DNA of 44,331 nucleotides from a virus: positions 1 through 44,331 of the IMG/VR virus record IMGVR_UViG_3300049617_000097; one strand, given 5' to 3'. Position 1 is the first letter of the stretch; each line of letters opens with the position of its first letter. A model generated the notes under the pieces. That model saw nothing but the letters and a program-made list of their open reading frames with translations. It had not been told where the DNA came from and searched no databases. Made by a program: the position numbers and the translations under genes. Below, piece after piece: positions 116-44,127 of the stretch.

Positions 116-209
116 GGCCGAAAAAGCTTGTTCTGATATAGACACTCCTAATCCAAACACAGGACAAGCTTTAATTTTGTCAAAAAAGGATGAATGTTAT
201 GCCGCTTGA
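114..209 (+). CDS. Possible 31-aa leader peptide overlapping the tape-measure start
   Basis: An ATG at 114 opens a 31-codon frame ending in TGA at 207-209, overlapping the tape-measure start at 199 by 11 bases. A weak AGG (102-104) lies 9 bases upstream of the ATG. No family is recognised. The ATG overlaps the TATAAT box at 110-115, so the ORF and that promoter cannot both work on one transcript; translation would need read-through from upstream. It may be a coupling peptide or chance. Confidence 0.25.
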   Translation: MAEKACSDIDTPNPNTGQALILSKKDECYAA

Positions 210-9200: not shown

Positions 9201-12200
9201 AGAAGTCCAAAGAGATCAACAGTTGGATACTGCTGCCAGCAGAGAAATAATGGAGCAGTTAACAGAATTTGGCGGCATTCTCCGTAGAAACCAGGGAGCA
9301 AATGTGGGATCGCTGGTTCAGGCGTTCAATCAGTCTCGAAGTACAGAAGTGCAAACTAACATAGGTGCCATAAGCAATATCAACGCAGAAGGTAATGTCA
9401 GTGCGAATGTTGTAAGCATGTTAACATATGCTATGGAAAGAATCCAAAAACAACGAGCAGAGTTGAACATGAAGCCGTTACCGGCAGGCCAAGAACTTAC
9501 TCCTCAGAGACTTACTGATGCAATGTCAAGGGGCACTGCCGGTATGCAAGAATTATTGGCTCAAATAGCTGAACAAAATCAGCAAATAGCTGAAGAACGA
9601 AGAGGTCAAGCTGACCCTATTACCCGCATAGAAAAAATAATCAACGAAATAGTAGGCTATTTAAGACTAATTGCAAATGCTATTATTGTCGCATTTGGTC
9701 AAATTGCAAATGGAATGATAGATGGATTAAAAGGCCCAGTGGCAGATATCTTTAGTGGTCAGGGCGAAAAGATGACTAAAGGGTTCGGAGAACTAAGAGA
9801 CTACATCAGGAATTTCGATAACACAGCGAACACGATGTTGGGCAACATAAACGCAAACATGAAAGATGGATGGGAAAAAACAGTAAGTCAGATCACTGTT
9901 GTTGTAATTCAATACATAATGAAAATCGTAGAGGCTTTGATAGAGACCTATGAATGGTTTAAGACCACAGCAGTACCTTGGCTAATCCAGATGTGGGATA
10001 ACATCTTGGCATGGTGGAAAGATACAGCATGGCCTTGGCTAAAGGATGAATTATGGCCAGGGATTGTTGCAGCATATAAGACCGTAGAGGGAATTCTTAT
10101 AGATATTTACAAATGGTGGACAGACACTGCTTGGCCTTTCCTGAGAGATAATTGGCCAGCACTTCTAGCCATTTTAGGTCTTATTTTAATTGCTTGTTTA
10201 GCCAATTCCAATCCTCTACTGTTATTGGTCGCTGCTGTAGGTGGTATAGCTGCATGGTTAGCCAATAAATTTGGTCTTGACCCTGTTGGCGGTGCAGCAG
10301 GTGCAATGGGTGGTATGGCAATTGGTGCTGGAATAGGAGCATTTGAAGGCCCCCTCGGTGCTGTAATAGGCGGTGCAATAGGTGCCATAGCAGGCGGCAT
10401 AGTAGGTGCTATATGGGGAGAAATAAGAAAAGAAGAAGCAGCTAGAGAGGCAGAAGGAAAAGCCGCTGCCAAACAGCTTGAGGCACACCATGCACGGATG
10501 GATCAAATCGCCCAAGAAAGAATTAACTTCGAGAGAGAAATCAGCAGGCAGGCTGAGGCAAGACTGGCCAATGAAAGAAGAGTAACTGCTGAAATCGAAC
10601 AAAGAGAAAGAAATGCACTTGCACAGGCACAAAGATTACGAGAAACAACTGGTGTTGACGTGCATAATCCTAATGCAAACATAGCTGATATCAGGGCACA
10701 TGTTACTACAGAACAAATTACAGCCAGACAAAGATCTATGTTCCCGGCAGATACTCCACACACTAGACAAGCTTTAACGCCCATAATTCAAACACAAACC
10801 ATAGGGGCTCAAACAAGACTTACCGATGCTCAAAGAGAATTGGAACAGGCAGAACAGGCACTTGCAGCAAGCCAGCAAACCATACAAGGCAATGCTACTT
10901 CACAAGCAAATATTAATACTGAACTAAAAAGACTGGCTACTCAAAGAGAAAATACGAATGCTGAGATTGAAAGCCAGCAACAACTTATAAACACTCGGCA
11001 AAGATGGATGCAAACTGGAAGAAATGCAGACGGCAGCCAGGTCAGTACACGACAGAGAAGTACCTATGAGGCACAAATTGCAGGGGCTCAAGGTGAACAG
11101 GTCAGGTTGCGAAGAGTGTTAACACAACTTGCAGAAAGCATACAGGAGCAACAAAATAGAAGAACTGGCATAGCAGGCGGATCAAGAGATGCAACGGCAG
11201 CCAATGAGGCAGCATCTAGGAGAAGAGATGCGGCACAGGTGGGAGTGGCAACGGCTGCACACAATCTACAAGAAGTGCAAATGGCCGGTGCTGATATGTT
11301 GGCTCATCATATTGATCCAATACAACAAGGACGAGCTGATTTGCGAGAAGCTGTAAGGGATTTAGGAAGAGGCCGAGCAAGTGCAAATACATCACCAGAA
11401 CAAATGTTTAGACTTCAGGCTGGATTCGAAACCAGACTTGGAGAAGCACTTAGGGCAAGTGGAACTGATGAAAATATAACCAAACTTGCCGACATATACA
11501 AAGAAGAAATGATGAGGAATAGTCCAGCAAGTCTTATTAACACCAGAGAAGGTACGGCCAGCAGAAATATTATGAGCCAACAATTGACTATGGCGGAAAG
11601 ACAGGCTAGGTTACAAGAAGAACAAAATAGGTTAATGAGAGAATTTCATGATGCTCAACAGCGAAATGACGCTCGTCGTCAAGCAGAATTGCTTGCAGGA
11701 CTGGCTGAAAATTCTTTGATGCGACAAGAGGGAATGCAAAGATTACAAGCAACGGTTGCCGCTATGCGAAATGTTATTGGCCCAGAAGGTGTAAACCAGG
11801 GCTATTCGCAAACATTAATAACTGCACTGCAAAATGAAGGTGGAATAGAAGGTGTACGACGCAGAACAGGTGGCAGAACAGACCCGACCACTCCTGGTAT
11901 ATCGCAAGCTGAAGCTAATGCTATCAGGGCTCTTGAAGAGTTTCATCAAATACAAACACTGCGAACGAGGGCAGAGGCTCCACAACCAACTACTGGTGGT
12001 GAACAGGCCGTATTGCATTGGCAACAAGACACTGCAAGAGCAAGAGAAGGTTTAGCCTCAAGAAGACAACAGGCACAAGCAGAAGCGGCAGCTACAGCCA
12101 TATGGACCCATGTCAATCAAGCTGGAGGAACAGTACAACAACAAATGGATACGGCTGTAAGCTTATGGCGAGAAGTCATTCCACAGGAACAACTACTCCA

Positions 12201-15200
12201 GGCACCACCGGCCCAAACAGCTTTAGGAATCCAAAGCACTGGTAGGCGTCAATTATATATTCAAGGTCAAACTCAGCTACTGCAACAGCAGATGTTGGAT
12301 GCACAAGCAGGTCGTGGCGACTTTGGACGACGTACTGGTGAATCAGCCACCGCACATCTTCAACGACAACAACAACAATATGCCCTGTTCGCACAGCAAA
12401 TTGCCGCACTACAGAGTATAGGCACACAGGGTTTGTCTGAGGTGGCAGAAGCTGCCGAATGGATTGCCACAGCCGGACATCATGCAATGGGAGTGGCACC
12501 GGAAGATCAAGCACTAGCTCCTACCGTAATGCCTCAGTGGCTACAATTGTTAGTAAATAGAAGAAGTAATGCCCCGGTAGCCCCAGGAGCAACACCACTC
12601 ACCACTCAGGCACAGGCACAGTCTCTCTTGGCTGATCTTCTTAGAGAATTGAATGCCCGTGGAGATAATCTTCTTGGTACAGCCCGCACAGCGGCAACAG
12701 CAGCACCCGACAGCGATATTGGACTGTTACAGAGACAACTTAACGCCCGTCCACCAGGACCAAGCAATTCCCGACCAGTGAGTGATTGGCAAAATGATAC
12801 ACAAGCTATGCTCAATACAACGACAAGAAGGTTACAAATTGAATTTGCTACCCAATATCAAATTGTGGCAAGAAATGTAGACCCTACCAATCAGAAGGCT
12901 GTTGCTGCTCAGGAGGTTGCTGCTATGCGATTAGGAGAGATTAGCAACCAGTTGGCTTTATTACAAACATTATATCAAAGTGGCGTAAGTGGCAATAGGT
13001 TTACGACAGCAATTGGTGGTAATTTACAAAACATGATGAATGCTGCAAACGCTGCCACTATCGCTCTGCAAAATTATGAAGAAGCTTTAGATAAGGCCAG
13101 AGAGGCTGCTGGTAATTTGGCTACAAGTTCAGAGGAGTATCAAGATTTACTTGACCAATGGACGACTCATGGAGAAGGAGCAGGATTACTTGCTGAATTA
13201 AATGCTGCAAGAGCTAACCTTGATAGATTGTCCGGGCCTCTCACAACTAGCATTGCGGGGGTTCCAACGACTGGTGAAGGAGCCGTCAGAGATCCGAATA
13301 TCATCCTTCGTGAACTTCAAGAAACAATAAGAGGACTTCCTGGGGTTGAAAGAGAAATAGACACTCAGTTATTGGCACGATTCCCAACATCTGAAGAAAG
13401 ACAGCCAGTAATAGCAAGAGAAACAGTAGCTCTTACAGAAACAGTAAATAGAATGTTGGCAGGGCGTGGTGATCCAGGCACGCTCAATCCACAAACGCTA
13501 TTGCAAAATTTGTATCGATTGATTGTGCTGCAAAACATACAAGGAATACAAACTAGCCCAAGTGTATCCGCCGTAACAGCTATCGATAGCATAAATCGCA
13601 ATCCATCTGTTCAGAATATACAACAAAGTGTGACTCAATTTGAAACTGCAATGGGACAAATTGCAAGAGGCGTTGGCATGCACGGAGCAGTTGTCCCGGT
13701 AGGGCCAGTGCCCACAGATGGCACAGCAAGACGAACGGTAGCATTGCCAACATATGCTCCACTTCCAGTTCCTGCTCTTGGCCAAACGCTTTCACCTGCA
13801 ACCTTCCAGCAGCTTACTGCAAGATTGGAAGAAACAGCTAGAATTTCCCTTCAAGATCGTCTATATGATCGAAACAGACCTGGCCTGCCAAATAATTTCT
13901 GGAGAATGATAGATGCTAATAGTCAGTTAGATGCTGCTGGACAACCAACAGTAAGAAGGAATCTTTTTGAGACAGAAGAAAGACAAATATTAGAAAGATT
14001 ACAACATGCTATTGAACATGGCAACGATCAACAAATTACTCTACAATCGTCGCAATTAGCTGAATTGAGAGAAGGTAACAGAATTGCCCAACGAATGACG
14101 GAATCCCAAAATGCATTGCGAGCAGCATTCGCAGCAAGAGGTCGGCCAGAACTGGCCAACGTAGAAGCAACTGCTTGGAGAGACGCAAAAAGAAATTGGG
14201 ACGCAATGGTTGCTCCAGTGACAACAGGAAACTCATTAGGAACTGGACCGGCATTGCCAGGTACAAGAGGAGGTGTTGGAGGGGCATCACCAGGAGTGCA
14301 GAGTGCTGATTTACAAGCTCAAATGGCAATTAGTATGAACCGCCAGACGATAAGGCAACAGGATAGAACTCAATTGATGTCGTCGGCACAGGAGTATCTT
14401 TCTCGTTTAGGGCCAAATCAACAGGCTGATGTAAATGATCGTGGCATGAACGCTTATGCAGCCGTCGCTCGGTTCGGAACTCGTCGTGAAAGATTAGTTG
14501 AATACAACCGTATCATGCCGCAATTACAGACAGCACTCCAAAGTGCTTTAAGTTCTTATCGAACTACACCAACAGACAGCACATTCAGATCGTTCCAAGA
14601 AGCGGCACAAAGAGTAGCCCAAGCAGAAGAGGGATTGAATGAGCCGGTCAATGTGTTCAATGAAGCTGTAGATTTATTCCAGCAAGCCACAAATAAATTT
14701 GACGAGTCAATTAGAGCATTAGATCCTAATGAACAAGCCAGGTTGAGAGATCAAGCATTGCAAAGACTGAACCAAGCATTAAACACTCTGGCCAATGCAA
14801 ATGTAAACGTTCAAGAATACGGGAACGTAATGATGCAACAAATCAGATCGTTAGGAAGAACTAGCGATGGTAGAACAAGAACTCCTCAAGAAATCATTAC
14901 TGAGATTCAAGCAGTACCTGAAGTAGCACAAACTATACAACATCCAGAACGGTATGCAACTTTCAACGCAGATTATGCAAGAATCCATGATGAGGTAGTC
15001 AGAATATGGCAAGAGTTACAAACTCTTGATACCACTACTGAAGAGGGACAAGATCGTGAAATAGCAATTTTAGACCGCTTGCGAAGCGATGAAGTTAGAC
15101 GAATTGCTCCTTTTGAACAAAGATTATTGGAAGCAATGAGCGGCATAGAAGAATTAAATAGTGACTGGGAAGAGTATTTGACATTGACCGGAGGATATCA

Positions 15201-18200
15201 TAGTCAAGAAGATGATTTAACATACCGACGTATGTTAGAAGATCAATTCAATAACTTCAAAGGTTTGTTAGACCAACAAGCAATGTTCCAGTTAGCCGCT
15301 CGAAACGTTCGCCCAGGCCAGTTAGAGGCTGCTGTAGCAAACCCACAAGCTCTTAATGCAGCATCGGCACAAATAATGTCGCAGATTATTCAGTCGCTAA
15401 CACCAAGATTGAGTCAACAACAGTTTCAACAACATCCTGTTTATGGAGCATTGTTACAAACAGGACGTGGAGGTTATGTTGCCCCTGCTGAAAGAGAAGA
15501 TGATTGGGAAACCTGGGAGAGACAAGAATCTATCAGGAGAACTCGTACTCAATGGCGTGATACTCAAGTAACACAACGACAACGACAAATTGATCTAAAT
15601 CCTAACAACGCAGCGTTGGTAACACAGATGCAACAGGAAATAGCTGCTATTCAACGAATCCATCAAATGATCACAAGTGAAGATTACTTAGGTCAAGAAG
15701 ATGTTGCATATTTCCGTCGTCCAGCGTTAAACAGAATAGGAATGCCACAACCTCCAACTTTACATCCAGCAACTGGAACAACTCCAGCAATTCCTGCTCC
15801 TAGATTTAATGAAATTCCTGGCAATTTAAGCGGTTTTACTTCCAGCATCATGGATCAGTTTTTCCGTGGCACATCGAGCCCCTTCTACCAGCCAACCGCT
15901 GCGGATACACAAATGCCAGGAGTTCAAAGTGGTCTTGCCGCTTTGGCAGGCGTGGATTGGACGCCTAATGCCCAGCAAAGACTGCAAAGCAGACTTAACG
16001 CAGTCAATGGTGTGTTGCAGTCACTATGGACGAACCACAGTCGTATTTTGAATGCACATAACCAATCAATTGATGCTGGTGGGGTGGGTAATCAGGAAGA
16101 AGTCTTAGAGTCTCAGAGGCAGTTCCTTGCTGCCATGCGAATATTCGCAAGGCAAATTCCTGAGCTTGGCAACATGTTACTGGAATATCAATTACAAGCA
16201 GTTAGAATGCCTACACCAGACGAAATTGCCGCCCAACCTCAGCCTCAATTGCCAGCAAGTCCATCGGCTTTGAACTTCCACTTAGGCCGTATTGATCGAA
16301 GGGATACCAATTCAGAAGAATTCGAACAATCGTTGCAGCAACTATTTGTGCTTGCCAGACAACATCCGGCAGTGGTTACTGAATTCATAACTCCTTCCAT
16401 TAATATTGCAAGAAGTCAAGCAGCACTACCCGAGACATCAGAAGCAGACAGGATGCGTCTTACGTCACAAGCTGATGTTCTTCAGTGGTTGATAAACAGA
16501 GTGCAATTGGTTGGCCAACCGGCTCCTCCAATGCAAATTCCTAATTTTGCCAACACGCCTGTACATGCCATCCTGCAACCTGGACAAGTTGGTCTTCATC
16601 CTATCACTCCTGTTCCTGTTCCGGGGGTCCAAGGTAGCCCTGTTCAAGGTCTGGCTGGTAGTTGGAGACCGGCAACTGGTGGTCAACCAACGCCTAGCGA
16701 CAGTGGTCAGCCTGGCGGCACTGCACAACCAGTTCCTAGTGGTCAGCCTGGCGGCACTGTTCCTGCTCCTCGATTTGGTGGTATTGGCGACGACATTGTT
16801 CGACTCCTTGATGATCTTATTCAAGATGCTGTTCGTCTCGCTCAGCAGGGAGCCGCTGGACCTCCTGCTCCACAACCACAGCCTGTTGTGCCTCCTACTC
16901 CTAATGGCAATGGTGGTCCACCTGTGGTGCCTCCTGTTCCACAACCACAGCCTGCTCCTAGTGGCAGTGGTAGTGGCGGCGGCGGAAATGCTACACCACC
17001 TGCTCCTCCTGCTGTGCAGCCTAATATTCCTGCTCCTAATGGCGGCGGAAATGCTACACTGCCTGCTGCTCCTTCTGTTGGACGTGGTGGTTTTGGTGGT
17101 GGTTTTGGTGGCATGCCAAACATGTTTCCGCCCCAAACACAAGCTATGCCAGCACCAGTTGTTGAAGGATTACCGCAGCAACAAACAAGCATCTTTGATA
17201 GGTTGCCATTTGGTCAACAACTACGATCAAGATTGCGACAAGGATTTGGTGGTGGCGTTGGTGGTGGACAAGCCGGTAGCGGAATGGGTGGTGGCGTTGG
17301 TGGTGGACAGTCCGGTAGCGGAATGGGTGGTGGCGTTGGTGGTGGACAGTCCGGTAGCGGAATGGGTGGTGGCGTTGGTGGTGGACAGTCCGGTAGCGGA
17401 ATGCCTTCTCAAGGATTGCCAATACAAATAACCCCACCACCACCGATAACTCCAAATATTCCTCCTCCAACTTCAACAGGAAGTGGTGGAGGAATATTTG
17501 GTGGTCCAGCAGGACCGTTGCCAACAGGAGCTACAAGTTCGACTCCAACGGTTGGTGGTCCAGCAGTCCCAGCAGGTTCATTGCCAACAAGTGGAAGCAT
17601 AATTGGTCCAGCAGGTCCAGAGGGCACAGGAACAATTGTTACAGGTACGCCTGTAGCTCCACCTGGCCGACCTTCATCTGGCCAAGCTTGGCAACCAGGC
17701 AGCGGTATGGCACTGGATCTTAACAACCAATTATCACCAAACGACCCGTGGCGACAAACTGTTCAACATTTTATTACTCCAGATGGACGACAAAGAATAG
17801 CTGGTCGTGTGATGCAATTTACTGGTGCTGTAATGCAGGCAATTAACAACCGAATGCCAGTGCCGCAGTCGAATACGGGCGTTCTTCTTAATCAACAAGA
17901 ACAAGCAGTATTGCAGGCTCAAGGTGTCCCTAATTGGATTCAATACATAGCTGGGAGAAGAACCTTCAGAGTTGTTGATGTTCATCCTGGTGGTGATCTA
18001 ACCAAAACGGAACGAAGATTAAAAGATGTCACCCAAAATATTATGACTCAACAGGAGCAAGATGCTCCAGAAACCTCACCAGGAATAGGAGGAGGTTTTA
18101 TGGCACGATGGATAAGAGGCGACAGAACAATTCCTGATAGTCCACCATTTTTTGGACAGCCATTTGTAGGCCAGGCTGACAATGGTTACGCACAGGGAAA

Positions 18201-19743
18201 CTGGGGTTTTAGTGGACCTTACGCAACTCGTCAAGACAATTCTTACGTGCTTGGCGAAGCAGGAAAAGCAAAATTGCCTGACTTTTTCCAAGCAGCTTAT
18301 AACTTGGATCGTGTTCCAGGTGGGATGTCTGGATTGGACCCAGAAGATTATGGGAATTTCCTTTATGCACTTCAAACCAACTGGCATGGCATTAGAGATT
18401 ATTTTCCAAACGCACTTACAAATTCGAGCATGGACCCAAGTAGAGCAGGAGCGAGTGCCCAATCCGGTTGGACGCTACCTCCATATTACAGACGGCTAGA
18501 TGCTGGAGGTTATCTAACAAAACAAGAGCCAAATGGTCCATCATGGGGAAATCTCATAAGAGAAAAAATGAATCAATATAGAGGATTTCAACCGCAAGTG
18601 CAGGCACAAAGAAATGCTGCTATTAATAGGCTTAACAATAATAAGACAGGAGAAATAACCCAAGCCGAACGTGTGCAACTTCCACACGACATAAAACAGA
18701 TGCCAATGATACAGCAAGGAGATGTAGAAGCAGTGCAACAGAATCCTACGGCTCCGCTTCAGGTGCCGATACCAGAAGCACCGGCCCAGCCAATTATTTC
18801 GACCCCAGCAAATACTCCTTTCTTACTTCCTGTGCCGAACAATACGGGGAATTCTGCCAATCCTGCTTACCCCCCTGTTCAACAAATTCCTAATCAGGGG
18901 ATTGGAGGAAACTTCAATCCGCAGGGTCAAGCGGTTGGCACTCCAATGGTATCCCAAACTGGCATAGCTCTTATTCACCGAGGAGAAGCTATCGTGCCAG
19001 CACAATATGTAAGCAGACTTTCAGAAATGATGGGAGACTATCGTCACACAGGTCCGTTCCGTATGCCTGATTCTGGTCAAGGGTATATTCCAGACTTAAT
19101 AAGAACAATTCTTGAACTAAGAAATGCCATCAGGGAACTAAGCTATACGGCTGACAGACCATCATTTAACACTTCATGGCTTCGTGGAACTAATGCACAG
19201 GAAGAAGCAACAGAACCAACTACTGATTGGATATTGCCATACAACGGATTGGTCACAGTCGTTACTGGTGCTTGGCAATACATACAAGATGAGGCTTCAA
19301 GATACTTAAATGGCTTGATGGAAAACGAAGGCAACATCAATGTAGTACCTATAAGCAGCAGGAATGAACAGCCAATCCCTGAAGTTCGAGCAAAACTGCC
19401 AACAATGCAGGAGCTTGATGTTGAAGAGGCGATACGTCGTCATCGAGCAGAAACACAAGTCGAAGCTGGAGCAGAAGACGAATATAGTGAAGATATCGCT
19501 GATAATACCGAAGAAACAGCTAAAAATACCAGCAATATGGCCAAGGCTCTTGTGGCTGTGGCAAGTCTGTTAGAAGGTATTCGTGCCTTATTGGCTGGCG
19601 GCGGTAACATTAAGGGTAAAAAAATAAACGGTGTTGACATAGATAGACTTATCAGGGAGACAGATTTGGACATTGATAGTCTTCCTACTCAATACGACCA
19701 GACCTACAACCAATCTGCTGGTCAAGACATGACTGAAACATAA
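199..19743 (+). CDS. Giant tail tape-measure protein (6,514 aa) with embedded enzyme-like domains
   Basis: Probable tape measure: it sets tail length, fills the tail tube and is ejected with DNA. Evidence is its size, its place just before the baseplate genes, and tape-measure motifs: GGIVPG-type repeats in the first third, a helical core (about 8500-9200), membrane-like hydrophobic stretches (4250-4390, 7570-7640, 8029-8221, 10153-10420), a long Q/A-rich coiled coil (about 10420-16400), Pro/Gly linkers (16600-17700), and a GIALIHRGEAIVPA motif near 18960. The N-terminal third carries HD and ART-like domains (separate entries). An ATG at 190 is in frame, but AGGA at 187-190 suits the ATG at 199 (8-base spacing). 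At about 0.15 nm per helical residue the upper limit is near 1 micrometre. Role sure; domain functions inferred. Confidence 0.9.
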   Translation: MPLDNLGREIKPITWEDFDKLIKDADETGEMKLKPGVEGKSEEQKGSDKTQEQIEENSAELLKKFDKVLELLSRLTGKNLKDEVKQAGNHLNQAVTFIEPKGKRQEFKNKFDSIGISRAIEDGLKNVTEQLQSAFHVREQVMPIHMQAQTPSVRFDNKLAEIMSNGFASLLQKLDQVGTDAVSNSLAPDMIESSRTREESEEATDNLNQYKPTNGILDSLPTLTQPYKFDFIGQDYESLVPEKKTVHKQLPLNVTNDNVNAVMPVTSGIPIEAAINTITSMLKYKLADDMPGLLPVTARPYEYQAINELPDPKPIVQPLMLMVMNDISDMLPTTLQVPVEPTFDNKAMKALVSSTAFEMPEPREQDPIFVHSQEREVKDNQLTTRRIINSNTAALPPPAREKQDKVLGFHNGGIVPGYPTHKDTQPATLNVGDTVISEPKVMAAGGPSHVYSKIMGTPPRALESDSGKEVAAALTPREVVIPERKATPIRSELLQFNRTGDFSYFDNNVSTQSRSLGKAQQTKRPASILPQSLTVGGIAGEYQKGGIVEKADSIADAAHGSIGQKRKWEGDLPYIVHPRAVRDKVKEMAGMTETDESAALLHDVIEDVAIPTKSVKEYEDKIQQEVGTEVLSLVRELTQPSSGPEFKDKSRDEKNAANWKHMEGISDRAKRLKMVDRFDNLKGYKNNPPKFMKRYLPESRKVLEICRSSDEIMAKELENRIIEAENYLNQQEVSAVDLPTMPEVSAKPSGYKRGEVPPPKGTQEIPKGHIRAYHYTKGSPDDVLRDGIKISMAKGHTYGEPDLVWGSTQPPDPHHNIVEFHVPAKDPSGMAEKPYGDLDEWQKGNHHIGLHRDVTPEEIIAIHEHWHDRYRYIQKNPDVKEAVIAGEHDNLITDPEYGPAILKVKSEAAQAKVSVEPLKIPQLATGGIVKKSAGGTLVNVGEGRYDEAIIPLKGTKQTAALTEALNVPTTEVSTKLPMPAGLAKGKTPQGLTVGGITGEYEDGGIVKSSIMSAGGPSHVYNQMGFAPATLERTIGQAPVALTPREVVTPDVAEPFEFNETDNRADDLEFVFDAEKRVALHRGLKQPFQRYTPEIQEQHENIKDSYREWVESGKLPEAFPQYKQMMWLNKIGKPQYFTPYKGDAEEYAGPGGEVVSIEIPEDMAMESIQSILRDTYAFSGQNLHEIIQDYGVKKTKASTEQVPQGYMMFEGGAVPSKPLLPIPAGLTRDVVPPTITPAEVSTASELGLTSPDIGVNVPDLAAPELGTFEAPTIKMPEMPKVDLSPSTVAPPAKKGPGILSGLGVLKGTYTKTKERVDKATDVPGIKQIKGLSKVTSEWIYKKLEERHGPVAAKGIIAGGAGTGWLITFLSGLLTGFPLSIPGQGLVPAIVAAEIYRFLNGSKKPPQGLTVGGIAGEYEGGSLVKDNRLRFEDGGVVPGGPPYEDKVKASLHKGDVVVNRDSVMSAGGPSYVHNQIMNTTPRVLESQSGQIDTLLTPDEVVIPEKTATPILPELLDFNKTGNFSYFDGSPNTVVQPTGFSPKLPMPTGLAISPPTLMKTGGVASQEASEQKTTVLGELGELLKKVSTTKKRERNAAGNTNLAHIRDLIMAGATQEELKQGMKTFTRGELKEDTIATYISKVRKQIAEENTAKQVAPIEVPTTPAVEVPQFQIALPMVRPTIPSTNNVAVEPELSSAAGEIKEMLSKEMPITLSEIADLFEPIIRMAEMATKQESINVKDTEARLWLSNISHIFSKVTSQRQPTPKASEPEEFTEWNPNKIGGFDPNSLKDWVHKEPKSPEESVKPNIEHDENGPLTLGNAKTLFEPIVKMANEATTPGSIYTEDIQVREVLEEILDALKKTKNPYVKRAKELWESAGRPDKWSSSESEFTEHAKHEALMVPAAEKLAAQLATKIPGTAEWEDEKKSLLPIAHAQLAKEAQKANRPELSPAAIKARTVEDQLLFYTHGPERLASGNKTKYTMEEFYKNDRERLKTNREKLNVKHEMQEQWEEQKKNIKVDEPKDLAIAEKQIRRELVTKEAESLQATAGYGRTKDFEKTAKENLFVDPLRDVTRKLEDIIGKPAKTEAIEPTTGDFCNCLHKEIDRLILALKGMSGVAVPTVKKKSKVANAKSSANFAAPPQNVTAPATPVEEPGIIGIESPTDFAIPEQTIATSLAPPVVTDISPVPPVQGIQPTGFGEQVISPYTVPVQGTQPVPPVQGIQSTGFGEQVISPYTVPVQGTQPVPPVQGIQSTGFVGQIVSPAPGSIAPAQSIIQGTAPAAPIQPSIVEGFQGAPPIQPNVVQDISFASPAQPGIQGTPVVPPAQPGTTGFESPTSFMAQSQTAGGPPGAGFADIGTAIGNSPGEATSSAGFSGVGGIISSIGGFAGSTVGGLADVVVPGDGELAAGAAGATGATGATGATGATGATGGEEFCNCLNTEISRLIKAIEKCFHDIIKQLADAIAIALVVALTGGIGGAAVGGEAAAGEAAGAGAGSAIPGAAAESEGGFLSKFGSYLGSLFSPRDKKEDKENKHPGRKEDPFDALIDALKHYFDRRNVIRRMGEIMTSENQDLVGNLLHTFNIGDMAGGFIKLGTKLVKTIWTVISNLFVDSVSLLGKALKGLFGLIGLGWLISPIFDFLTSIFSGVATFLGKVVGVLGEALGSIVGGLLNILSKAIADEAKYFQAIRQSLYRVEGINRGPAVKEDFGPPEEGKQMPRRSTAFDANWAKQEEAIKKYLITLDDIRETGQSMTVLQQGQLRLQERGIRALGVENRVRNTGLHIAKQLGMHAESTLDMFADMHQGLQMGVLDLHQMGLNMRYVSEQTGLTGASLAEVVKQSKQYMTNMRNAGTMTTGAGRNTMQLLAEATTTGTTEGMGHLLQQLSQSVLTGEGGPSRNLAFMATGMSGANSGQLMEDLLGGTILQSRSSMQAFADGLENTMMLFTNNRRLDEIKDANERGRISAMMRQSIGVGLQELDLLATNFRRASRTFAQVYQDIKDNKDLTEVQRDQQLDTAASREIMEQLTEFGGILRRNQGANVGSLVQAFNQSRSTEVQTNIGAISNINAEGNVSANVVSMLTYAMERIQKQRAELNMKPLPAGQELTPQRLTDAMSRGTAGMQELLAQIAEQNQQIAEERRGQADPITRIEKIINEIVGYLRLIANAIIVAFGQIANGMIDGLKGPVADIFSGQGEKMTKGFGELRDYIRNFDNTANTMLGNINANMKDGWEKTVSQITVVVIQYIMKIVEALIETYEWFKTTAVPWLIQMWDNILAWWKDTAWPWLKDELWPGIVAAYKTVEGILIDIYKWWTDTAWPFLRDNWPALLAILGLILIACLANSNPLLLLVAAVGGIAAWLANKFGLDPVGGAAGAMGGMAIGAGIGAFEGPLGAVIGGAIGAIAGGIVGAIWGEIRKEEAAREAEGKAAAKQLEAHHARMDQIAQERINFEREISRQAEARLANERRVTAEIEQRERNALAQAQRLRETTGVDVHNPNANIADIRAHVTTEQITARQRSMFPADTPHTRQALTPIIQTQTIGAQTRLTDAQRELEQAEQALAASQQTIQGNATSQANINTELKRLATQRENTNAEIESQQQLINTRQRWMQTGRNADGSQVSTRQRSTYEAQIAGAQGEQVRLRRVLTQLAESIQEQQNRRTGIAGGSRDATAANEAASRRRDAAQVGVATAAHNLQEVQMAGADMLAHHIDPIQQGRADLREAVRDLGRGRASANTSPEQMFRLQAGFETRLGEALRASGTDENITKLADIYKEEMMRNSPASLINTREGTASRNIMSQQLTMAERQARLQEEQNRLMREFHDAQQRNDARRQAELLAGLAENSLMRQEGMQRLQATVAAMRNVIGPEGVNQGYSQTLITALQNEGGIEGVRRRTGGRTDPTTPGISQAEANAIRALEEFHQIQTLRTRAEAPQPTTGGEQAVLHWQQDTARAREGLASRRQQAQAEAAATAIWTHVNQAGGTVQQQMDTAVSLWREVIPQEQLLQAPPAQTALGIQSTGRRQLYIQGQTQLLQQQMLDAQAGRGDFGRRTGESATAHLQRQQQQYALFAQQIAALQSIGTQGLSEVAEAAEWIATAGHHAMGVAPEDQALAPTVMPQWLQLLVNRRSNAPVAPGATPLTTQAQAQSLLADLLRELNARGDNLLGTARTAATAAPDSDIGLLQRQLNARPPGPSNSRPVSDWQNDTQAMLNTTTRRLQIEFATQYQIVARNVDPTNQKAVAAQEVAAMRLGEISNQLALLQTLYQSGVSGNRFTTAIGGNLQNMMNAANAATIALQNYEEALDKAREAAGNLATSSEEYQDLLDQWTTHGEGAGLLAELNAARANLDRLSGPLTTSIAGVPTTGEGAVRDPNIILRELQETIRGLPGVEREIDTQLLARFPTSEERQPVIARETVALTETVNRMLAGRGDPGTLNPQTLLQNLYRLIVLQNIQGIQTSPSVSAVTAIDSINRNPSVQNIQQSVTQFETAMGQIARGVGMHGAVVPVGPVPTDGTARRTVALPTYAPLPVPALGQTLSPATFQQLTARLEETARISLQDRLYDRNRPGLPNNFWRMIDANSQLDAAGQPTVRRNLFETEERQILERLQHAIEHGNDQQITLQSSQLAELREGNRIAQRMTESQNALRAAFAARGRPELANVEATAWRDAKRNWDAMVAPVTTGNSLGTGPALPGTRGGVGGASPGVQSADLQAQMAISMNRQTIRQQDRTQLMSSAQEYLSRLGPNQQADVNDRGMNAYAAVARFGTRRERLVEYNRIMPQLQTALQSALSSYRTTPTDSTFRSFQEAAQRVAQAEEGLNEPVNVFNEAVDLFQQATNKFDESIRALDPNEQARLRDQALQRLNQALNTLANANVNVQEYGNVMMQQIRSLGRTSDGRTRTPQEIITEIQAVPEVAQTIQHPERYATFNADYARIHDEVVRIWQELQTLDTTTEEGQDREIAILDRLRSDEVRRIAPFEQRLLEAMSGIEELNSDWEEYLTLTGGYHSQEDDLTYRRMLEDQFNNFKGLLDQQAMFQLAARNVRPGQLEAAVANPQALNAASAQIMSQIIQSLTPRLSQQQFQQHPVYGALLQTGRGGYVAPAEREDDWETWERQESIRRTRTQWRDTQVTQRQRQIDLNPNNAALVTQMQQEIAAIQRIHQMITSEDYLGQEDVAYFRRPALNRIGMPQPPTLHPATGTTPAIPAPRFNEIPGNLSGFTSSIMDQFFRGTSSPFYQPTAADTQMPGVQSGLAALAGVDWTPNAQQRLQSRLNAVNGVLQSLWTNHSRILNAHNQSIDAGGVGNQEEVLESQRQFLAAMRIFARQIPELGNMLLEYQLQAVRMPTPDEIAAQPQPQLPASPSALNFHLGRIDRRDTNSEEFEQSLQQLFVLARQHPAVVTEFITPSINIARSQAALPETSEADRMRLTSQADVLQWLINRVQLVGQPAPPMQIPNFANTPVHAILQPGQVGLHPITPVPVPGVQGSPVQGLAGSWRPATGGQPTPSDSGQPGGTAQPVPSGQPGGTVPAPRFGGIGDDIVRLLDDLIQDAVRLAQQGAAGPPAPQPQPVVPPTPNGNGGPPVVPPVPQPQPAPSGSGSGGGGNATPPAPPAVQPNIPAPNGGGNATLPAAPSVGRGGFGGGFGGMPNMFPPQTQAMPAPVVEGLPQQQTSIFDRLPFGQQLRSRLRQGFGGGVGGGQAGSGMGGGVGGGQSGSGMGGGVGGGQSGSGMGGGVGGGQSGSGMPSQGLPIQITPPPPITPNIPPPTSTGSGGGIFGGPAGPLPTGATSSTPTVGGPAVPAGSLPTSGSIIGPAGPEGTGTIVTGTPVAPPGRPSSGQAWQPGSGMALDLNNQLSPNDPWRQTVQHFITPDGRQRIAGRVMQFTGAVMQAINNRMPVPQSNTGVLLNQQEQAVLQAQGVPNWIQYIAGRRTFRVVDVHPGGDLTKTERRLKDVTQNIMTQQEQDAPETSPGIGGGFMARWIRGDRTIPDSPPFFGQPFVGQADNGYAQGNWGFSGPYATRQDNSYVLGEAGKAKLPDFFQAAYNLDRVPGGMSGLDPEDYGNFLYALQTNWHGIRDYFPNALTNSSMDPSRAGASAQSGWTLPPYYRRLDAGGYLTKQEPNGPSWGNLIREKMNQYRGFQPQVQAQRNAAINRLNNNKTGEITQAERVQLPHDIKQMPMIQQGDVEAVQQNPTAPLQVPIPEAPAQPIISTPANTPFLLPVPNNTGNSANPAYPPVQQIPNQGIGGNFNPQGQAVGTPMVSQTGIALIHRGEAIVPAQYVSRLSEMMGDYRHTGPFRMPDSGQGYIPDLIRTILELRNAIRELSYTADRPSFNTSWLRGTNAQEEATEPTTDWILPYNGLVTVVTGAWQYIQDEASRYLNGLMENEGNINVVPISSRNEQPIPEVRAKLPTMQELDVEEAIRRHRAETQVEAGAEDEYSEDIADNTEETAKNTSNMAKALVAVASLLEGIRALLAGGGNIKGKKINGVDIDRLIRETDLDIDSLPTQYDQTYNQSAGQDMTET
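1420..1848 (+). repeat. Tape-measure linker cassette, copy 1
   Basis: First copy of a degenerate coding repeat. It runs through GGIVPGYP, AGGPSHVY (near 1525), a TPRALES-like segment, LTPREVVIPE (near 1618), a GDFSYFD segment and LTVGGIAGEY (near 1795). Related copies lie at 2965-3366 and 4405-4795. The HD domain follows it directly. Short GG-rich repeats of this style are usual in tape-measure proteins; this cassette is longer and ordered. Confidence 0.7.
1850..2330 (+). other. HD hydrolase domain of SpoT/MESH1 type inside the tape measure
   Basis: Residues about 555-714 (numbered from the ATG at 190) read as a RelA/SpoT-type HD domain, the fold that removes pyrophosphate from (p)ppGpp. In order: AHGSIGQKRKW, PYIVHP with H580 (codon 1927), AALLHDVIED with H605, D606, E609 and D610 (codons from 2002), and KMVDRFDNL with D679 (codon 2224). 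These match the metal ligands H53, H77, D78 and D144 and the catalytic E81-D82 pair of Rel from Streptococcus equisimilis. No synthetase domain follows, as in stand-alone MESH1-type hydrolases. The motif match is strong; the substrate is inferred, since other nucleotides are possible. Confidence 0.75.
2440..2915 (+). other. ADP-ribosyltransferase-like domain 1 inside the tape measure
   Basis: Residues about 751-909 form a compact segment beginning RAYHYTKGSPDDVLRDGI (H777, codon 2518), then GEPDLVWGSTQP and IVEFHVP. An H-Y/F-T motif followed by 'xxL/I..GI/L' is the usual opening of ART-fold domains such as DarT and the RNA 2'-phosphotransferase group. The distal catalytic glutamate cannot be assigned by eye. 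It follows the HD domain after a short linker and is followed by another GGIV linker. A fold-level suggestion only. Confidence 0.35.
2965..3366 (+). repeat. Tape-measure linker cassette, copy 2
   Basis: Second, partly rearranged copy of the cassette at 1420-1848: ATGGIVKKS, LTVGGITGEY (near 3172), SAGGPSHVYNQ (near 3235) and LTPREVV (near 3320). It separates ART-like domain 1 from ART-like domain 2. Confidence 0.65.
3370..3810 (+). other. ADP-ribosyltransferase-like domain 2 inside the tape measure
   Basis: Residues about 1061-1207 contain VALHRGLKQPF (H1083, R1084; codons 3436 and 3439), then YFTPYKGDAEEYAGPGG (from 3601) and VVSIEIPEDM. The order 'h-R-G ... Y-F-T-P ... A..YA ... G.VV.I.IP' resembles the opening, central strand and following helix of toxin-type ART domains, with FTP where many have STS. 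A catalytic E/QxE was not identified. It may be inactive, structural or a different fold. Confidence 0.35.
4405..4795 (+). repeat. Tape-measure linker cassette, copy 3
   Basis: Third copy of the cassette, with LTVGGIAGEY (near 4417), GGVVPGGP, SAGGPSYVHNQ (near 4585), LTPDEVVIPE (near 4675) and NFSYFDGS. It preserves almost the full order of copy 1. A hydrophobic segment (4250-4390) lies just before it. Confidence 0.7.
6754..6957 (+). repeat. 87-bp in-frame tandem repeat (Pro/Gln-rich)
   Basis: Units begin at 6754, 6841 and 6928, giving an exact 87-base (29-residue) period and about 2.3 copies of a VQGIQ-x-TGFGEQ... motif. The near-identical DNA suggests recent duplication. It lies in a Pro/Gln-rich linker of the tape measure. 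Confidence 0.85.
7405..7476 (+). repeat. 9-bp microsatellite encoding Gly-Ala-Thr repeats
   Basis: Two GCTGCCGGT units are followed by six identical GCTACAGGT units, encoding a collagen-like Gly-x-y run. Because it is in frame and perfect, copy number could change by slippage without breaking the tape measure. It precedes the second of two FCNCL motifs (near 6475 and 7486). Confidence 0.9.
17248..17403 (+). repeat. Four 39-bp tandem repeats (Gly-rich)
   Basis: Four back-to-back 39-base units (17248, 17287, 17326, 17365) each encode GGGVGGGQ(A/S)GSGM. Copies 2-4 look identical at the DNA level. They form a flexible glycine linker in the C-terminal part of the tape measure. Confidence 0.9.
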
Positions 19744-30293: not shown

Positions 30294-31532
30294 TTACCTC
30301 TTGCTTTTATGATAGTGTTGATAAGCAGGCCGATGAGTTATATCTGGTAATGTTTCCAATAATTCCTCCAAAGAGCCAACAATTTTCGTGCAACATCCTA
30401 ATGCCCACCAGCTTAATTTATTCAATGGCTTGTTATTGATGTTTATAAGGTATAGCTTTTTCCCAAGCAAATAAGATTGACCAATTTCGTGGAATGTGCC
30501 TCCCCCGAGGAAATCATCATAGTAACACACTACAATGCCAGCCATCTTTACAAAATAAAGATCATTATCTATGATTTTCCTAAAGTTTACTTGAAATTTT
30601 GGAAAGTCAGAATCTATGGTTTCTCGCCAGCCATCATCTAAAAGCAATGTGTTTTCTTCCTTTGTTGGATCAATACAATAATACCCCTTTTCATTCAAGA
30701 GTTGTTTTAAGTTCCTTCGCCATTTTATGCCGCCGCTTGGATGATACTGCATGGCACCGGCAAGATAAATTACATTATCTCTTTCGGAATTAAGTATTTT
30801 GTAAAGCATAGATGGTAACATATGGAATTTGATCAAATCAGTAAGTTTGACAGCATTTTCTTTGTCAAAGCCAAGTTCATAGTAGGTTTTGGCATAGCGT
30901 TTACTGTATGCCTTTTTAACAGTTGTTTCAATATTCCATTTTTGTTTGAAATATAACGATAATTCATTATTTTCGTGTTCGGCAAATCCCCTAGTATGTA
31001 AATGATAATTATATCCATTATCAAGCGATCCATCGTCGCAAAACCAGATTGCCAAACTTAAAGGTGTAAGTTTCTCCAAAAAACTAGCCACAGGTTTTTT
31101 AATTCCATCTGGATATAATTCATTTCTAACTTCTTTAATTGTGTCTAGTGCTAGAGTTCTAATGCGGCACTTGCTCTGAGCTATGCTGATTCCAGCACCT
31201 GAAATAATTGACTTTAGCTTATAATTTAGCCAAAATAAATAAGGATATTGCTTTGACGAATGTACAATTTCAACCTGTCCAGCCGTGCTTGCATGACCAT
31301 CGCCCATTAGTGTACCATAAATAATTTCTTTTTGTTCTTCTGTGAACAATTTTTCATTAATTGAAGATTTGCGTACAAAAGAAATACCGTAAAGTCCACG
31401 TAATCTCCTAATGGTTTCTTCGTGAAATCCATATTTAGATGCAATTTCTTTGTCTGTTTTTCTTTTTTCAACATATTCAAACTCAAGCAATTGTTTACTT
31501 ATCACGTCAGAAACTTTGTTCATATTTCTCAT
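30294..31532 (-). CDS. LAGLIDADG homing endonuclease fused to a nucleoside 2-deoxyribosyltransferase-like domain (412 aa)
   Basis: Residues about 10-52 form a helix-turn-helix. Residues 70-79 (IIYGTLMGDG) and 158-168 (ending WFCDDG) are the two LAGLIDADG motifs with their catalytic acids. After the endonuclease-type end near 245, residues 253-398 read NVIYLAGAM, DNDLYFVKMAGIVVCYYDD and GGGTFHEIG, the layout of nucleoside 2-deoxyribosyltransferases, in which GT..E carries the nucleophile (E349). An ATG at 31586 is in frame, but AGGAG lies 7 bases before the ATG at 31532. The stop abuts the stop of the plus-strand gene. The fusion is seen in one frame; activity is inferred. Confidence 0.75.
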   Translation of the reverse strand: MRNMNKVSDVISKQLLEFEYVEKRKTDKEIASKYGFHEETIRRLRGLYGISFVRKSSINEKLFTEEQKEIIYGTLMGDGHASTAGQVEIVHSSKQYPYLFWLNYKLKSIISGAGISIAQSKCRIRTLALDTIKEVRNELYPDGIKKPVASFLEKLTPLSLAIWFCDDGSLDNGYNYHLHTRGFAEHENNELSLYFKQKWNIETTVKKAYSKRYAKTYYELGFDKENAVKLTDLIKFHMLPSMLYKILNSERDNVIYLAGAMQYHPSGGIKWRRNLKQLLNEKGYYCIDPTKEENTLLLDDGWRETIDSDFPKFQVNFRKIIDNDLYFVKMAGIVVCYYDDFLGGGTFHEIGQSYLLGKKLYLININNKPLNKLSWWALGCCTKIVGSLEELLETLPDITHRPAYQHYHKSKR

Positions 31533-31641
31533 TTGTCTGCTCCTGCCGCAAAATATTAAAACCTCGACAAAAATACAACTTAACAACTGAAACTTCTTTG
31601 AGCAAGTCCAATAGTCAATAGAATCTTACTAGTTTAAGAAC

Positions 31642-38814: not shown

Positions 38815-39150
38815 ATGGCTATCCCGCTTACTAAATATGCAAAAATCAAAAATAATTATTGTGTCGGCTATCTTGGCGACAATCCCGAATTGTTGCTGCA
38901 ACTTAAAGTAGTTAGACCTTTCATTGAAAAAGAGCTACCTGGCATCAAAATATTTGTAGCTTGCCAGGATAGACTTGTTCACGTCCTTGAAGGAGAGGAA
39001 CGAATTATCCTGGAAAGCGAACTCTCAGACAAAATATCCGAATGTGCCTTTGCTTATTACCGTGAACTAGATCGTAACGATCCACATTCGGTAAAAATTT
39101 TCCTTAATGAATCAAATATTCCCTATTCATCAGAGGTCTTCAATTTGTAA
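38815..39150 (+). CDS. Glycosyltransferase-like fragment next to an endonuclease insertion (111 aa)
   Basis: Residues about 14-70 (NYCVGYLGDNPELLLQL, then PGIKIFVACQD) resemble the N-terminal half of GT-B type glycosyltransferases and loosely parallel the GT9-like gene at 40961. No C-terminal domain follows: the frame ends 28 bases into the minus-strand endonuclease gene, so it may have been cut short by that insertion. GAGGT lies 6 bases before the ATG, inside the start of the divergent gene. Family call is weak. Confidence 0.35.
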   Translation: MAIPLTKYAKIKNNYCVGYLGDNPELLLQLKVVRPFIEKELPGIKIFVACQDRLVHVLEGEERIILESELSDKISECAFAYYRELDRNDPHSVKIFLNESNIPYSSEVFNL

Positions 39151-40085
39151 AGCATGCATTTTGGCATTTGTTGTTCTAACGCTAATTGTTTCATGATTTT
39201 AAATATTGAACGTGGAAGAACAACTTTATGATCTCTATCATTTAAAACTCTTATATCAGAACTGAACTTCTTATTAAGTATGTTTGCAAATTTTAATAGC
39301 TCTTGATAATCCCAACCTTTGGCGGTAATATATGGATAAGGAGTTCGTCTATCTGAATTTCCTAGAGTTCCATCATCAAGATACCAAATCAACAATCCCA
39401 ACAAATTCAAGTTTTCCATCAAATCTAATGGTATTTTATTTTTAAGACAGTTTTTCCCAGGAGGATAAAATTTATTACGCAAACTGGTAAAAATAGGATG
39501 AGTTTTAGTGGTACATTCTGCTCCATAACCAAGCTTGCAGAAACGTGGAGCAAACACATTTAACTTTTCAATTTTCCATTTTACATAATCTGCTTGTGCA
39601 TCACAATGAACTTCTGAAAAAAAATAAGTTACTCCTTTTTCTTTTTTCATTACACACCCGTCGCCAAGGAGACTTCCAATTAATACTTGAAAAGTAACAT
39701 CATCTAAATCGTTCAAACAAAAAGAATAATCTAGTTGTGCTGAACAATTACTTCTTATTCTTGTTAAAGTTTTCTTTTCTAAATACAGTCCCATTCTTTG
39801 CCGTTGTCCTGCAACGGATGCTTGGCTACGAGTTGGAAATAGTTTTGCTAATTCTTCAATTGGTAATTTACAAGCATGTTGCTTCATAAGTTCAATTTCA
39901 CTTATAAGCCAAGGCACTTGAGTTCTGGTAAATGGTCCATTTATTTTCAGCCTATGTCGTTTAGTTGCGATAGCTTTCGAACTGTGACGAGGCAACAATT
40001 CGACAAGATGTTTTGATGTCTTGTTTGACCCATGTTCTTTTAGAATGGCTATTTCTTTTTGTGTCCATGCTGTTGGCATTGGCAT
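39123..40085 (-). CDS. LAGLIDADG homing endonuclease (320 aa)
   Basis: Two Myb/SANT-like DNA-binding repeats (residues about 5-47 and 58-100) precede two LAGLIDADG motifs at 134-143 (VLIGSLLGDG) and 229-239 (ending WYLDDG), with catalytic Asp residues. GGAG sits 8 bases before the ATG. It is free-standing and minus-strand, between a truncated-looking gene and the ATT-start gene, and its last 28 bases overlap the former. By eye it is AT-richer than the tail genes. A homing role is inferred from the family. Confidence 0.85.
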   Translation of the reverse strand: MPMPTAWTQKEIAILKEHGSNKTSKHLVELLPRHSSKAIATKRHRLKINGPFTRTQVPWLISEIELMKQHACKLPIEELAKLFPTRSQASVAGQRQRMGLYLEKKTLTRIRSNCSAQLDYSFCLNDLDDVTFQVLIGSLLGDGCVMKKEKGVTYFFSEVHCDAQADYVKWKIEKLNVFAPRFCKLGYGAECTTKTHPIFTSLRNKFYPPGKNCLKNKIPLDLMENLNLLGLLIWYLDDGTLGNSDRRTPYPYITAKGWDYQELLKFANILNKKFSSDIRVLNDRDHKVVLPRSIFKIMKQLALEQQMPKCMLYKLKTSDE

Positions 40086-40202
40086 AGTTTGTTCTCCAAA
40101 GTAAAACTAATATATATGTAACATTATTTTGCATATTAATCAAGATAAATTATCACCTCAGAAATATATATACTCAGACAGGGATGACAAGATAGATAAT
40201 TT
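40086..40202. promoter_or_regulatory. AT-rich region between the endonuclease and the ATT-start gene
   Basis: A strongly AT-rich stretch with TA-repeats (near 40111 and 40165). It must hold the divergent start signals for the minus-strand endonuclease and the downstream virion-protein gene. TTGCAT (40129-40134) and several -10-like boxes are present but none at correct spacing, so no promoter is assigned. Confidence 0.3.
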
Positions 40203-40217
40203 AAGGAGGCTACCATT
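40203..40217 (+). promoter_or_regulatory. Perfect ribosome-binding site before an ATT start
   Basis: AAGGAGG at 40203-40209 is followed after 5 bases by ATT at 40215-40217, in frame with the gene. The in-frame codon before it (40197-40199) is TAA, and no ATG, GTG or TTG occurs in frame until 40323, 38 codons past the site. Confidence 0.75.
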
Positions 40218-40859
40218 TCAGTCTTTCAAGTTCAACTAAACAATACGCAGCAGGGTCTTCTGGACTTAAACCCAACTACGGCATCTCCAACAGCTAATAC
40301 AACTGCTGGGATTGGCACACAAATGCTGCCATCTATTCAGAGAACTATTAGTGTATGTGGTCCACGTCTTATCAGACGAGATCTTGAAGATGGCCAGACT
40401 TTTACCGATTGCAACTATTGGAAGAGATTTGCATATCCTCAATTGCCATTAGACCAGGCATTCATCACAGTTATAAGTGATGATGGTTCGGTATATAGTG
40501 ATGACATTCAAGAGAACACCTTTGGTGTGGTTTTGAATGACAACACATCAGGCAGCACCTTCCATAGCCCAGTTCTTTCAAGTGATACATTTTCTACCAA
40601 CTACTTTGACATTGCTGGAACTTACAGTGGCTTCGCCAAGTTTGTCCAGATGCAGAACTTTGCTCCGTCAACTTCTACGAACTATGACATCAAGGTTCAG
40701 CTTAGTGGTTCAACCAATGCAGTCATGATACTCAAGGCTACGGATACTCAAATATTCAATGCTAACGACCTTGCTGTCACCAAGCTGGCCTTCCAGGGTG
40801 GTGTTTCAAACGTAAGTGTTCAAATAATCATGTCCGTCATGATCACTCCTACTAGCTGA
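40215..40859 (+). CDS. Probable virion structural protein with a non-standard ATT start (214 aa)
   Basis: Opening (Met)SVFQVQLNNT, it has a conserved-looking block DGQTFTDCNYWKRFAYPQLP and several Ser/Thr-rich beta segments without a signal peptide or catalytic motif. The frame from 40215 to 40859 is uninterrupted, and the perfect AAGGAGG site fixes the start at ATT; starting at 40323 would drop 36 residues that read like real protein. The gene has its own intrinsic terminator, suggesting strong, separate expression as for an abundant virion or decoration protein. An ATT codon here could also be a sequencing error for ATG. Confidence 0.65.
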   Translation: MSVFQVQLNNTQQGLLDLNPTTASPTANTTAGIGTQMLPSIQRTISVCGPRLIRRDLEDGQTFTDCNYWKRFAYPQLPLDQAFITVISDDGSVYSDDIQENTFGVVLNDNTSGSTFHSPVLSSDTFSTNYFDIAGTYSGFAKFVQMQNFAPSTSTNYDIKVQLSGSTNAVMILKATDTQIFNANDLAVTKLAFQGGVSNVSVQIIMSVMITPTS

Positions 40860-40877
40860 TATTCAGCTTGCAAATTG

Positions 40878-40908
40878 AGCCCAGTCTTGACTGGGCTTTT
40901 TTGTTTTT
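40878..40908 (+). terminator. Intrinsic terminator
   Basis: Arms AGCCCAGTC and GACTGGGCT form a 9-bp stem (loop TT) ending at 40897, followed by T-rich sequence (TTTTTGTTTTT). A smaller hairpin AGCTGA/TCAGCT (40854-40868) overlaps the stop codon just before. It closes the gene at 40215-40859 and lies before any plausible start of the next gene. Confidence 0.9.
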
Positions 40909-42129: not shown

Positions 42130-43137
42130 ATGGCAATAGGTTTTGATGCTGGCACGTATAACATGGTTGCATGCACTAGAGACGAGAAAAACAACTTCTC
42201 TTATCGTAGAGAAGTCAATGCTTTCTTGGCAATTCCTCTTGAAGACAGGTTCGTCTTTAACATGATGAAAACCAGTGAAGTGCCTTTGGTAGAAAGAGAC
42301 AAGGTTGCTTATGCTCTTGGCGAAAAGGCGGTTCGCATGGCATACAGCATGTCGGACTTTGAACTACGCAGACCAATGAAAGATGGCTGTGTAAATCCAA
42401 AAGAACGAGATGCTTTCGAGATCATGAACATCATGATCCACAGTTTGCTAGAGCCAATCAGGCACGAAAAAGAGCCACTTTATTATTCAGTGCCTGCAAA
42501 TGCTCTTAATGAAGAAACAGATGCTGATTATCATGGAAAGATTCTTCAGGCTATTTTCCGTGCTTATGAATCAGAAAAAGGTTTCAAAGTCCAGGCTTTT
42601 CCAATCAATGAAGGTCTGGCGTTAGTTTATGCTGAACTAGCTTCTAAACAATATACCGGGATCGGCATTAGCTTCGGGGCTGGCATGGTCAATCTATGCT
42701 ACGCCATATTCGGGGCACCCGTGTTTCAATTCTCCATTGTTAACAGTGGTGACTGGATTGATAAAATGGCCGCAAAGGCCACAGGTGAAAACACAACTTT
42801 TATCAACCAAGAAAAGACTAAAATCAATCTTTCTGAGTCACCAAAGACTTTGGTCGAGCGTGCTATTCAAACCCAGTATCGTATTATGTTAGAAAAAACG
42901 GTACAGACAATTAAGAAAGGTATCACCGAATCCGGCAAAAAATCCAGAAGTGATCAGCCTCTGGATATCGTAATTGCTGGAGGTACGTCAATACCTTCGG
43001 GTTTCGATTTAATGTTTAGGGAAGTGGTTACACAAGCGAGCTTGCCAATTCCGATTGGCTCAATTGTGAGACCTACAGACCCACTTTACTCCGTGAGCAG
43101 GGGGGCACTCATTGCCGCTGAGAATTCTCAACAATAA
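42130..43137 (+). CDS. Actin-like ATPase of ParM/Alp type (335 aa)
   Basis: Contains the actin/Hsp70-type nucleotide motifs in order: phosphate-1 GFDAGTYNMV (residues 4-13), phosphate-2 GIGISFGAGMV (177-187) and adenosine motif IVIAGGTS (280-287). Length and layout fit bacterial actin-like proteins such as ParM and phage Alp, which form filaments for DNA segregation or phage positioning. It lies at the end of the structural operon with an AAGGAGA site 5 bases before the ATG. Family call is good; filament role is inferred, since related proteins may act as chaperones. Confidence 0.65.
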   Translation: MAIGFDAGTYNMVACTRDEKNNFSYRREVNAFLAIPLEDRFVFNMMKTSEVPLVERDKVAYALGEKAVRMAYSMSDFELRRPMKDGCVNPKERDAFEIMNIMIHSLLEPIRHEKEPLYYSVPANALNEETDADYHGKILQAIFRAYESEKGFKVQAFPINEGLALVYAELASKQYTGIGISFGAGMVNLCYAIFGAPVFQFSIVNSGDWIDKMAAKATGENTTFINQEKTKINLSESPKTLVERAIQTQYRIMLEKTVQTIKKGITESGKKSRSDQPLDIVIAGGTSIPSGFDLMFREVVTQASLPIPIGSIVRPTDPLYSVSRGALIAAENSQQ

Positions 43138-43185: not shown

Positions 43186-44127
43186 ATGAATACAACGCCG
43201 CCAAAAAATGAGTTACTTGATGTGATAAACACAAAAGCAAACATTCGTGAAGTTGCTAGTCACTATAATGTTGGATGGTCTACCATTAGATGTTGGTTAA
43301 GATGGACAGGAATTAATCTAAAACCACCAATGAAAAGCCTCTTAGCCGATTGCGGGCGATGGACAGATAAAGAAATAGCGGCTAAATATAAGGTGAGTGA
43401 CAGGACCATAGTTAAGTGGAAAAATGAATATGGGATATCAAAGAAAAATATACGCAACGATAGTTTGCCAAAGTCACTAACCGATGAACAAAAGAATATA
43501 GTCGTCGGTAAACTGCTAGGCGATGGTCATGTTCAAAAAATTAGGCGTAAGAATACATGCCTTTCTGTCGAACACTCTTTAGCTCAAGAGGAATATGTTT
43601 ATGGAGTTCATAATATTCTTCAACCGTTAGGCTTAAGTATACGGTATAGATCAAGAAAAAATCCTTTTAAGACAATGAGTCATCATGCTGATATGTTGCA
43701 TAGTTGTTTGTTCAACACAGTTTCATGCCCAATTTTCACAGATTTAAGGCATCAATGGTACAAAGATGGCATAAAAACAGTGCCGGAAAACATAGATCTT
43801 ACATGGCAAACCATAGCTATATGGTATTGCGATGATGGATCTAATTTACTTGGAGAAAGATGTATACGAAGACATGGAGCATTATGTACTAATTCTTTTT
43901 CTCCTACTAGCGTTGAGTTTCTAATAGAAAAATTAAGAGAGAAGTCTGTTACGTCTCATCTTTATTTTGATAATGGGCTACCAATGATTCACATTAATAA
44001 AGAATCATTTATGTATTTTTTAGATTGTGTCAAACAATACATTCCTTGGAAATGCTTTGATTATAAGCTAATGCGAAACAAAACGCAATCTAAAGGAGAA
44101 TATGATGAGTGCAAAGAAAGTTGCTAA
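43186..44127 (+). CDS. LAGLIDADG homing endonuclease (313 aa)
   Basis: Two helix-turn-helix segments (residues about 16-45 and 58-85) precede two LAGLIDADG motifs at 105-114 (IVVGKLLGDG) and 209-218 (TIAIWYCDDG). It is the only one of the three endonuclease genes here on the plus strand. AAGG lies only one base before the ATG, too close for a normal site, and a TATAAT box is 6 bases upstream, so it may be translated from a leaderless message. Its end overlaps the next gene by 26 bases. Homing is inferred from the family. Confidence 0.85.
   Translation: MNTTPPKNELLDVINTKANIREVASHYNVGWSTIRCWLRWTGINLKPPMKSLLADCGRWTDKEIAAKYKVSDRTIVKWKNEYGISKKNIRNDSLPKSLTDEQKNIVVGKLLGDGHVQKIRRKNTCLSVEHSLAQEEYVYGVHNILQPLGLSIRYRSRKNPFKTMSHHADMLHSCLFNTVSCPIFTDLRHQWYKDGIKTVPENIDLTWQTIAIWYCDDGSNLLGERCIRRHGALCTNSFSPTSVEFLIEKLREKSVTSHLYFDNGLPMIHINKESFMYFLDCVKQYIPWKCFDYKLMRNKTQSKGEYDECKESC

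Follow-up and report, generated by a model that had tools for sequence, protein, structure and literature searches.

Very few genes begin with AUU, a codon that gene callers do not consider as a start. In phage T4, gene 26 has an internal AUU start. In Staphylococcus aureus, cvfC1 begins at AUU and ccpN/citZ at AUA; extended Shine-Dalgarno (SD) sequences accompany infC, cvfC1 and ccpN, and the output of AUU/AUA starts with such extended SDs is about 10% of that of AUG (PMC13009471). In Streptomyces, sigR begins at GTC and is repressed by IF3, and an AUU start is IF3-sensitive in any host (PMC5472188). Across prokaryotes, weakened start codons tend to be coupled to SD changes or stronger SDs (PMC5622118), and there are reports of huge and jumbo phages with an IF3 of their own (PMC7162821, PMC7824862). 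Here we describe a gene of an uncultured giant phage that carries ATT where all the relatives found carry ATG.

Start site and homologues

The window, by which we mean the whole 44,331-nt stretch analysed (IMG/VR virus record IMGVR_UViG_3300049617_000097, only part of a genome), carries a 214-aa gene at 40215–40859 (+, stop included), which homologues, alignment, a structural model and fold matches mark as coding for a probable virion beta-sandwich protein. Its frame opens with ATT (40215–40217, +) and runs uninterrupted for 214 codons to TGA at 40857–40859. Direct reading confirmed what had drawn attention to the site, namely a perfect SD, AAGGAGG (40203–40209), followed by five bases, CTACC, and the ATT; the complete anti-SD match, TAAGGAGG (40202–40209, +), spans 8 nt and lies 5 nt before the ATT. 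It also bore out the claim that an in-frame TAA (40197–40199, +), which rules out any upstream start, leaves no other standard start: ATG, GTG and TTG are absent from the frame until the ATG at 40323–40325 (+), codon 37. The gene is thus without a canonical start, and a gene caller, ignoring AUU, would either overlook it or annotate a product that lacks the first 36 residues. The open frame ahead of that ATG, given as 36 more codons in the sequence-only reading, stands with a corrected count of ATT plus 35 further codons, the earlier figure having included the ATT itself.

Eighty IMG/VR loci encode a homologue (41–54% identity), and in every one the codon aligned with the ATT is ATG, followed by Ser-x-Phe (MSxF). 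After neighbours were added to these loci and redundancy was removed, the equivalent codon was ATG in 75/75 relatives, all on huge-phage contigs, and ATT, ATA or ATC in none; a search of genome contigs found no relatives. This homology strongly supports the codon at 40215 as the true start position, as had been proposed. Translation from the ATG at 40323, the first canonical in-frame start and the gene callers' choice, would leave the ATT unused and give a 178-aa protein, and we regard it as extremely improbable. Such a start would lose S2, F4 and G14, which are invariant across the family alignment and all lie before it, as well as residues 2–6, which the AlphaFold2 model predicts as a beta strand with a pLDDT of about 91; no SD was seen before this ATG on reading the sequence, and the relatives start elsewhere. 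With conserved residues and a confidently modelled strand upstream of it, the later ATG was rejected as the ancestral start.

Rarity of the ATT start and Shine-Dalgarno strength

As a control, 647 conserved, well-supported start sites were mapped in related loci and the window, and any ATG, GTG or TTG at the site, in the upstream open frame or at most 10 codons downstream was counted as usable. ATT 40215 was the sole site without one; the other 646, nearly all from similar metagenome contigs, all have one. Degenerate scans of viral contigs for ATT, ATA or ATC start patterns gave eight matches, none of them homologous; with ATG in 75/75 relatives, the unusual start is not conserved among orthologues. 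Taken together, control and scans indicate that real ATT starts and start-destroying errors are both uncommon in such material, but the control cannot tell the two apart for this ATT. When the exact site was searched as a pattern, allowing either ATG or ATT, no sister contig was found, and there was no near-identical contig.

The SD is of the strong, extended kind expected of AUU-start genes. Its 8-nt anti-SD match is the longest among the window's genes and compares with a maximum of 7 nt in 97 distinct relatives. Paired computationally with the E. coli 16S tail (the host's true anti-SD may differ), it gives a duplex energy of −12.1 kcal/mol; the best relative reaches −10.6 and the median relative −7.7. 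Within the window, gene 33397 has an equally strong computed duplex (−12.2 kcal/mol) with a GGTGAT core. Because the feature was chosen partly for its SD, the SD strength is in part an ascertainment effect.

Predicted protein

Searches of the window protein against Pfam, PHROG and PDB sequences gave no significant match, and the Pfam Enas domain is matched in one of the 75 family members. The AlphaFold2 model (pLDDT 89.5) is beta-rich, with a C-terminal jelly-roll-like domain. Structure matches cover well only residues 96–214; the best of them, which are weak, are Bacillus Ena appendage subunits (Ena3A: Z 8.7, 100 residues aligned, rmsd 3.0), and phage capsid and cement proteins rank lower. 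The product of this core, mostly single-copy gene is probably a virion beta-sandwich protein and may be a surface or fibre-like component. The gene is present in nearly all related loci and single-copy in 12 of the 14 relatives searched, with a second copy in two. In one relative, L148, the virion-type gene is duplicated in tandem (1012–1653 and 1759–2397). The conserved virion-type fold, the terminator and the strong SD make an abundant protein plausible.

Leader and gene neighbourhood

Upstream of the gene, a conserved leader element with a putative promoter role, ATATATATACTCAGACAG (40164–40181, +), aligns with the leaders of near relatives, and a TATATA-like motif precedes the gene in 50 of the 75 homologues. 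A tiny ORF (ATG ACA AGA TAG, 40184–40195, +) lies directly before the SD; it is unseen in the aligned leaders of relatives and is probably due to chance. Judged by the relatives' gene order, a homing endonuclease gene (39123–40085) was inserted between the preceding gene and this leader. Creation of the leader by that insertion was rejected, since the DNA from the conserved element through the SD can be aligned with near relatives' leaders. A start-hiding hairpin was likewise unsupported, the predicted fold being weaker than those of shuffled sequences (z +2.2). On the 3' side, the gene is followed by an intrinsic-terminator-like hairpin and T run (40877–40908, +).

The surrounding gene order is conserved across relatives, including, downstream of the ATT gene in related huge phages, a gene (42130–43137, +) that matches the actin-like Pfam family Volactin (E 9e-68). 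The 44 kb hold three freestanding LAGLIDADG_2 homing endonuclease genes, at 39123–40085 (−), 43186–44127 (+) and 30294–31586 (−). The last of these extends into a domain that weakly resembles a nucleoside deoxyribosyltransferase and scores below the Pfam cut-off. A giant open frame of 6517 aa (190–19743, +) probably encodes the tape measure protein, from its position and size only, and by eye other genes in the window look like tail, baseplate and further phage genes.

IF3 in related phages

IF3 genes were found in four of 11 large relatives (L169, L170, L171 and L172) and not in G001, G002, G003 and G005, contigs that include near relatives of the window and may be incomplete. By eye, L169 and L172 also carry a thiamine-pyrophosphate-enzyme-like gene near the IF3 gene. 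The sequence-only reading had suggested IF3-linked control as in infC. What remains of this suggestion is that some relatives encode IF3; the ATT gene is not infC, nor does its product appear to be an IF3-linked factor, with no Pfam or PHROG match and a predicted beta-rich fold, and no special IF3 link is needed, since AUU starts are IF3-sensitive in any host. IF3-linked control of the ATT gene is thus possible but weakly indicated. A fuller version, in which a core virion gene would have traded its ATG for ATT plus an extended SD, its output being set by IF3-sensitive initiation, perhaps through phage-encoded IF3, and the local change perhaps being driven by the neighbouring homing endonuclease, is very unlikely.

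Origin of the ATT codon

The evidence tips slightly towards an ATT that is genuine and initiates translation, though less efficiently: a weak AUU start, compensated in part by an SD stronger than any other in the family and giving full-length protein at reduced yield. Between the two alternatives left by the sequence-only reading, we modestly prefer such a real non-standard start over a single-base error or mutation. One base change in the lineage of the window phage would have converted the ancestral ATG to ATT. The 8-nt SD, at near-optimal spacing, would hold the 30S subunit over the AUU, so that fMet-tRNA could still initiate there, inefficiently, and the outcome would be the full 214-aa protein at lower yield, as IF3-sensitive as any AUU start. 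In favour of this reading are the exact homology with the relatives' ATG, the intact frame with ordinary protein divergence, the native leader and the terminator, the strong SD, and the published examples of AUU/AUA starts with extended SDs and of weak starts coupled to SD changes. The start position, homology, SD strength and intact frame are shown; we infer that the base is real, that translation begins at the AUU in vivo, that the strong SD makes up for the weak codon and that less protein results.

The chief rival is sequence error, under which the phage would really have ATG at 40215, the T at 40217 being a fault of consensus or assembly, and the gene would be an ordinary member of its family; we hold this to be possible, though not probable. 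A low-coverage metagenome consensus may contain errors, a single base separates the codon from the ATG of all 75 non-redundant relatives, and an ATG here would give ATG TCA GTC TTT, an entirely ordinary opening that is found in relative L133. That no other family member has ATT, one base away from ATG, argues against a real ATT start, and a large drop in expression should be poorly tolerated because the gene is usually single-copy and probably structural. Set against an error, the 646 other conserved start sites show no start-destroying change, the window's long frames are intact and it contains no N, and the window protein alone departs from two other family-invariant residues (N164S and G184N), whereas other members show at most one such departure each. 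The N184 codon, AAC, cannot be reached from any Gly codon by one base change; since at least two are required, the lineage has genuinely drifted at residue 184.

The two substitutions favour a real lineage change but could also mean relaxed constraint on a gene that is being silenced. The ATT would then be a recent inactivating mutation, with little or no protein made from a gene that is dispensable or replaced by a copy elsewhere in the unsampled genome. This is unlikely, even though the three departures from family-invariant residues exceed those of any other member, two relatives have a second copy and the window covers only part of the genome. The 214-codon frame is intact and the protein's divergence is normal for the lineage; the prevalence of the gene and its usual single copy, an SD that is stronger rather than decayed, and a terminator after the gene all argue against silencing.

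If the base is real, the locus offers a clean natural case: it differs from all its relatives by one base, and its SD is strong enough for testing whether SD strength can rescue a near-cognate start. Some phages of this group, moreover, encode an IF3.

Comparison with known systems

The T4 gene 26 start resembles that of the window gene in being an AUU in a structural gene of a tailed phage; it differs in being an internal second start, whereas the window ATT is the only one. Like E. coli infC, the AUU start of which serves IF3 autocontrol, the window gene has AUU at its true start and would face IF3 discrimination, but it encodes another protein, is not autoregulatory, and its ATT is not conserved in its family. 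The non-canonical AUU/AUA starts of S. aureus cvfC1 and ccpN/citZ (PMC13009471) are also comparable; those of cvfC1 and ccpN are conserved and ribosome-profiled, whereas the window ATT is a singleton known from sequence alone. With Streptomyces sigR, the proposal for the window gene shares a non-canonical start that lowers yield; sigR differs in its GTC codon and in having a conserved regulatory role that has been demonstrated.
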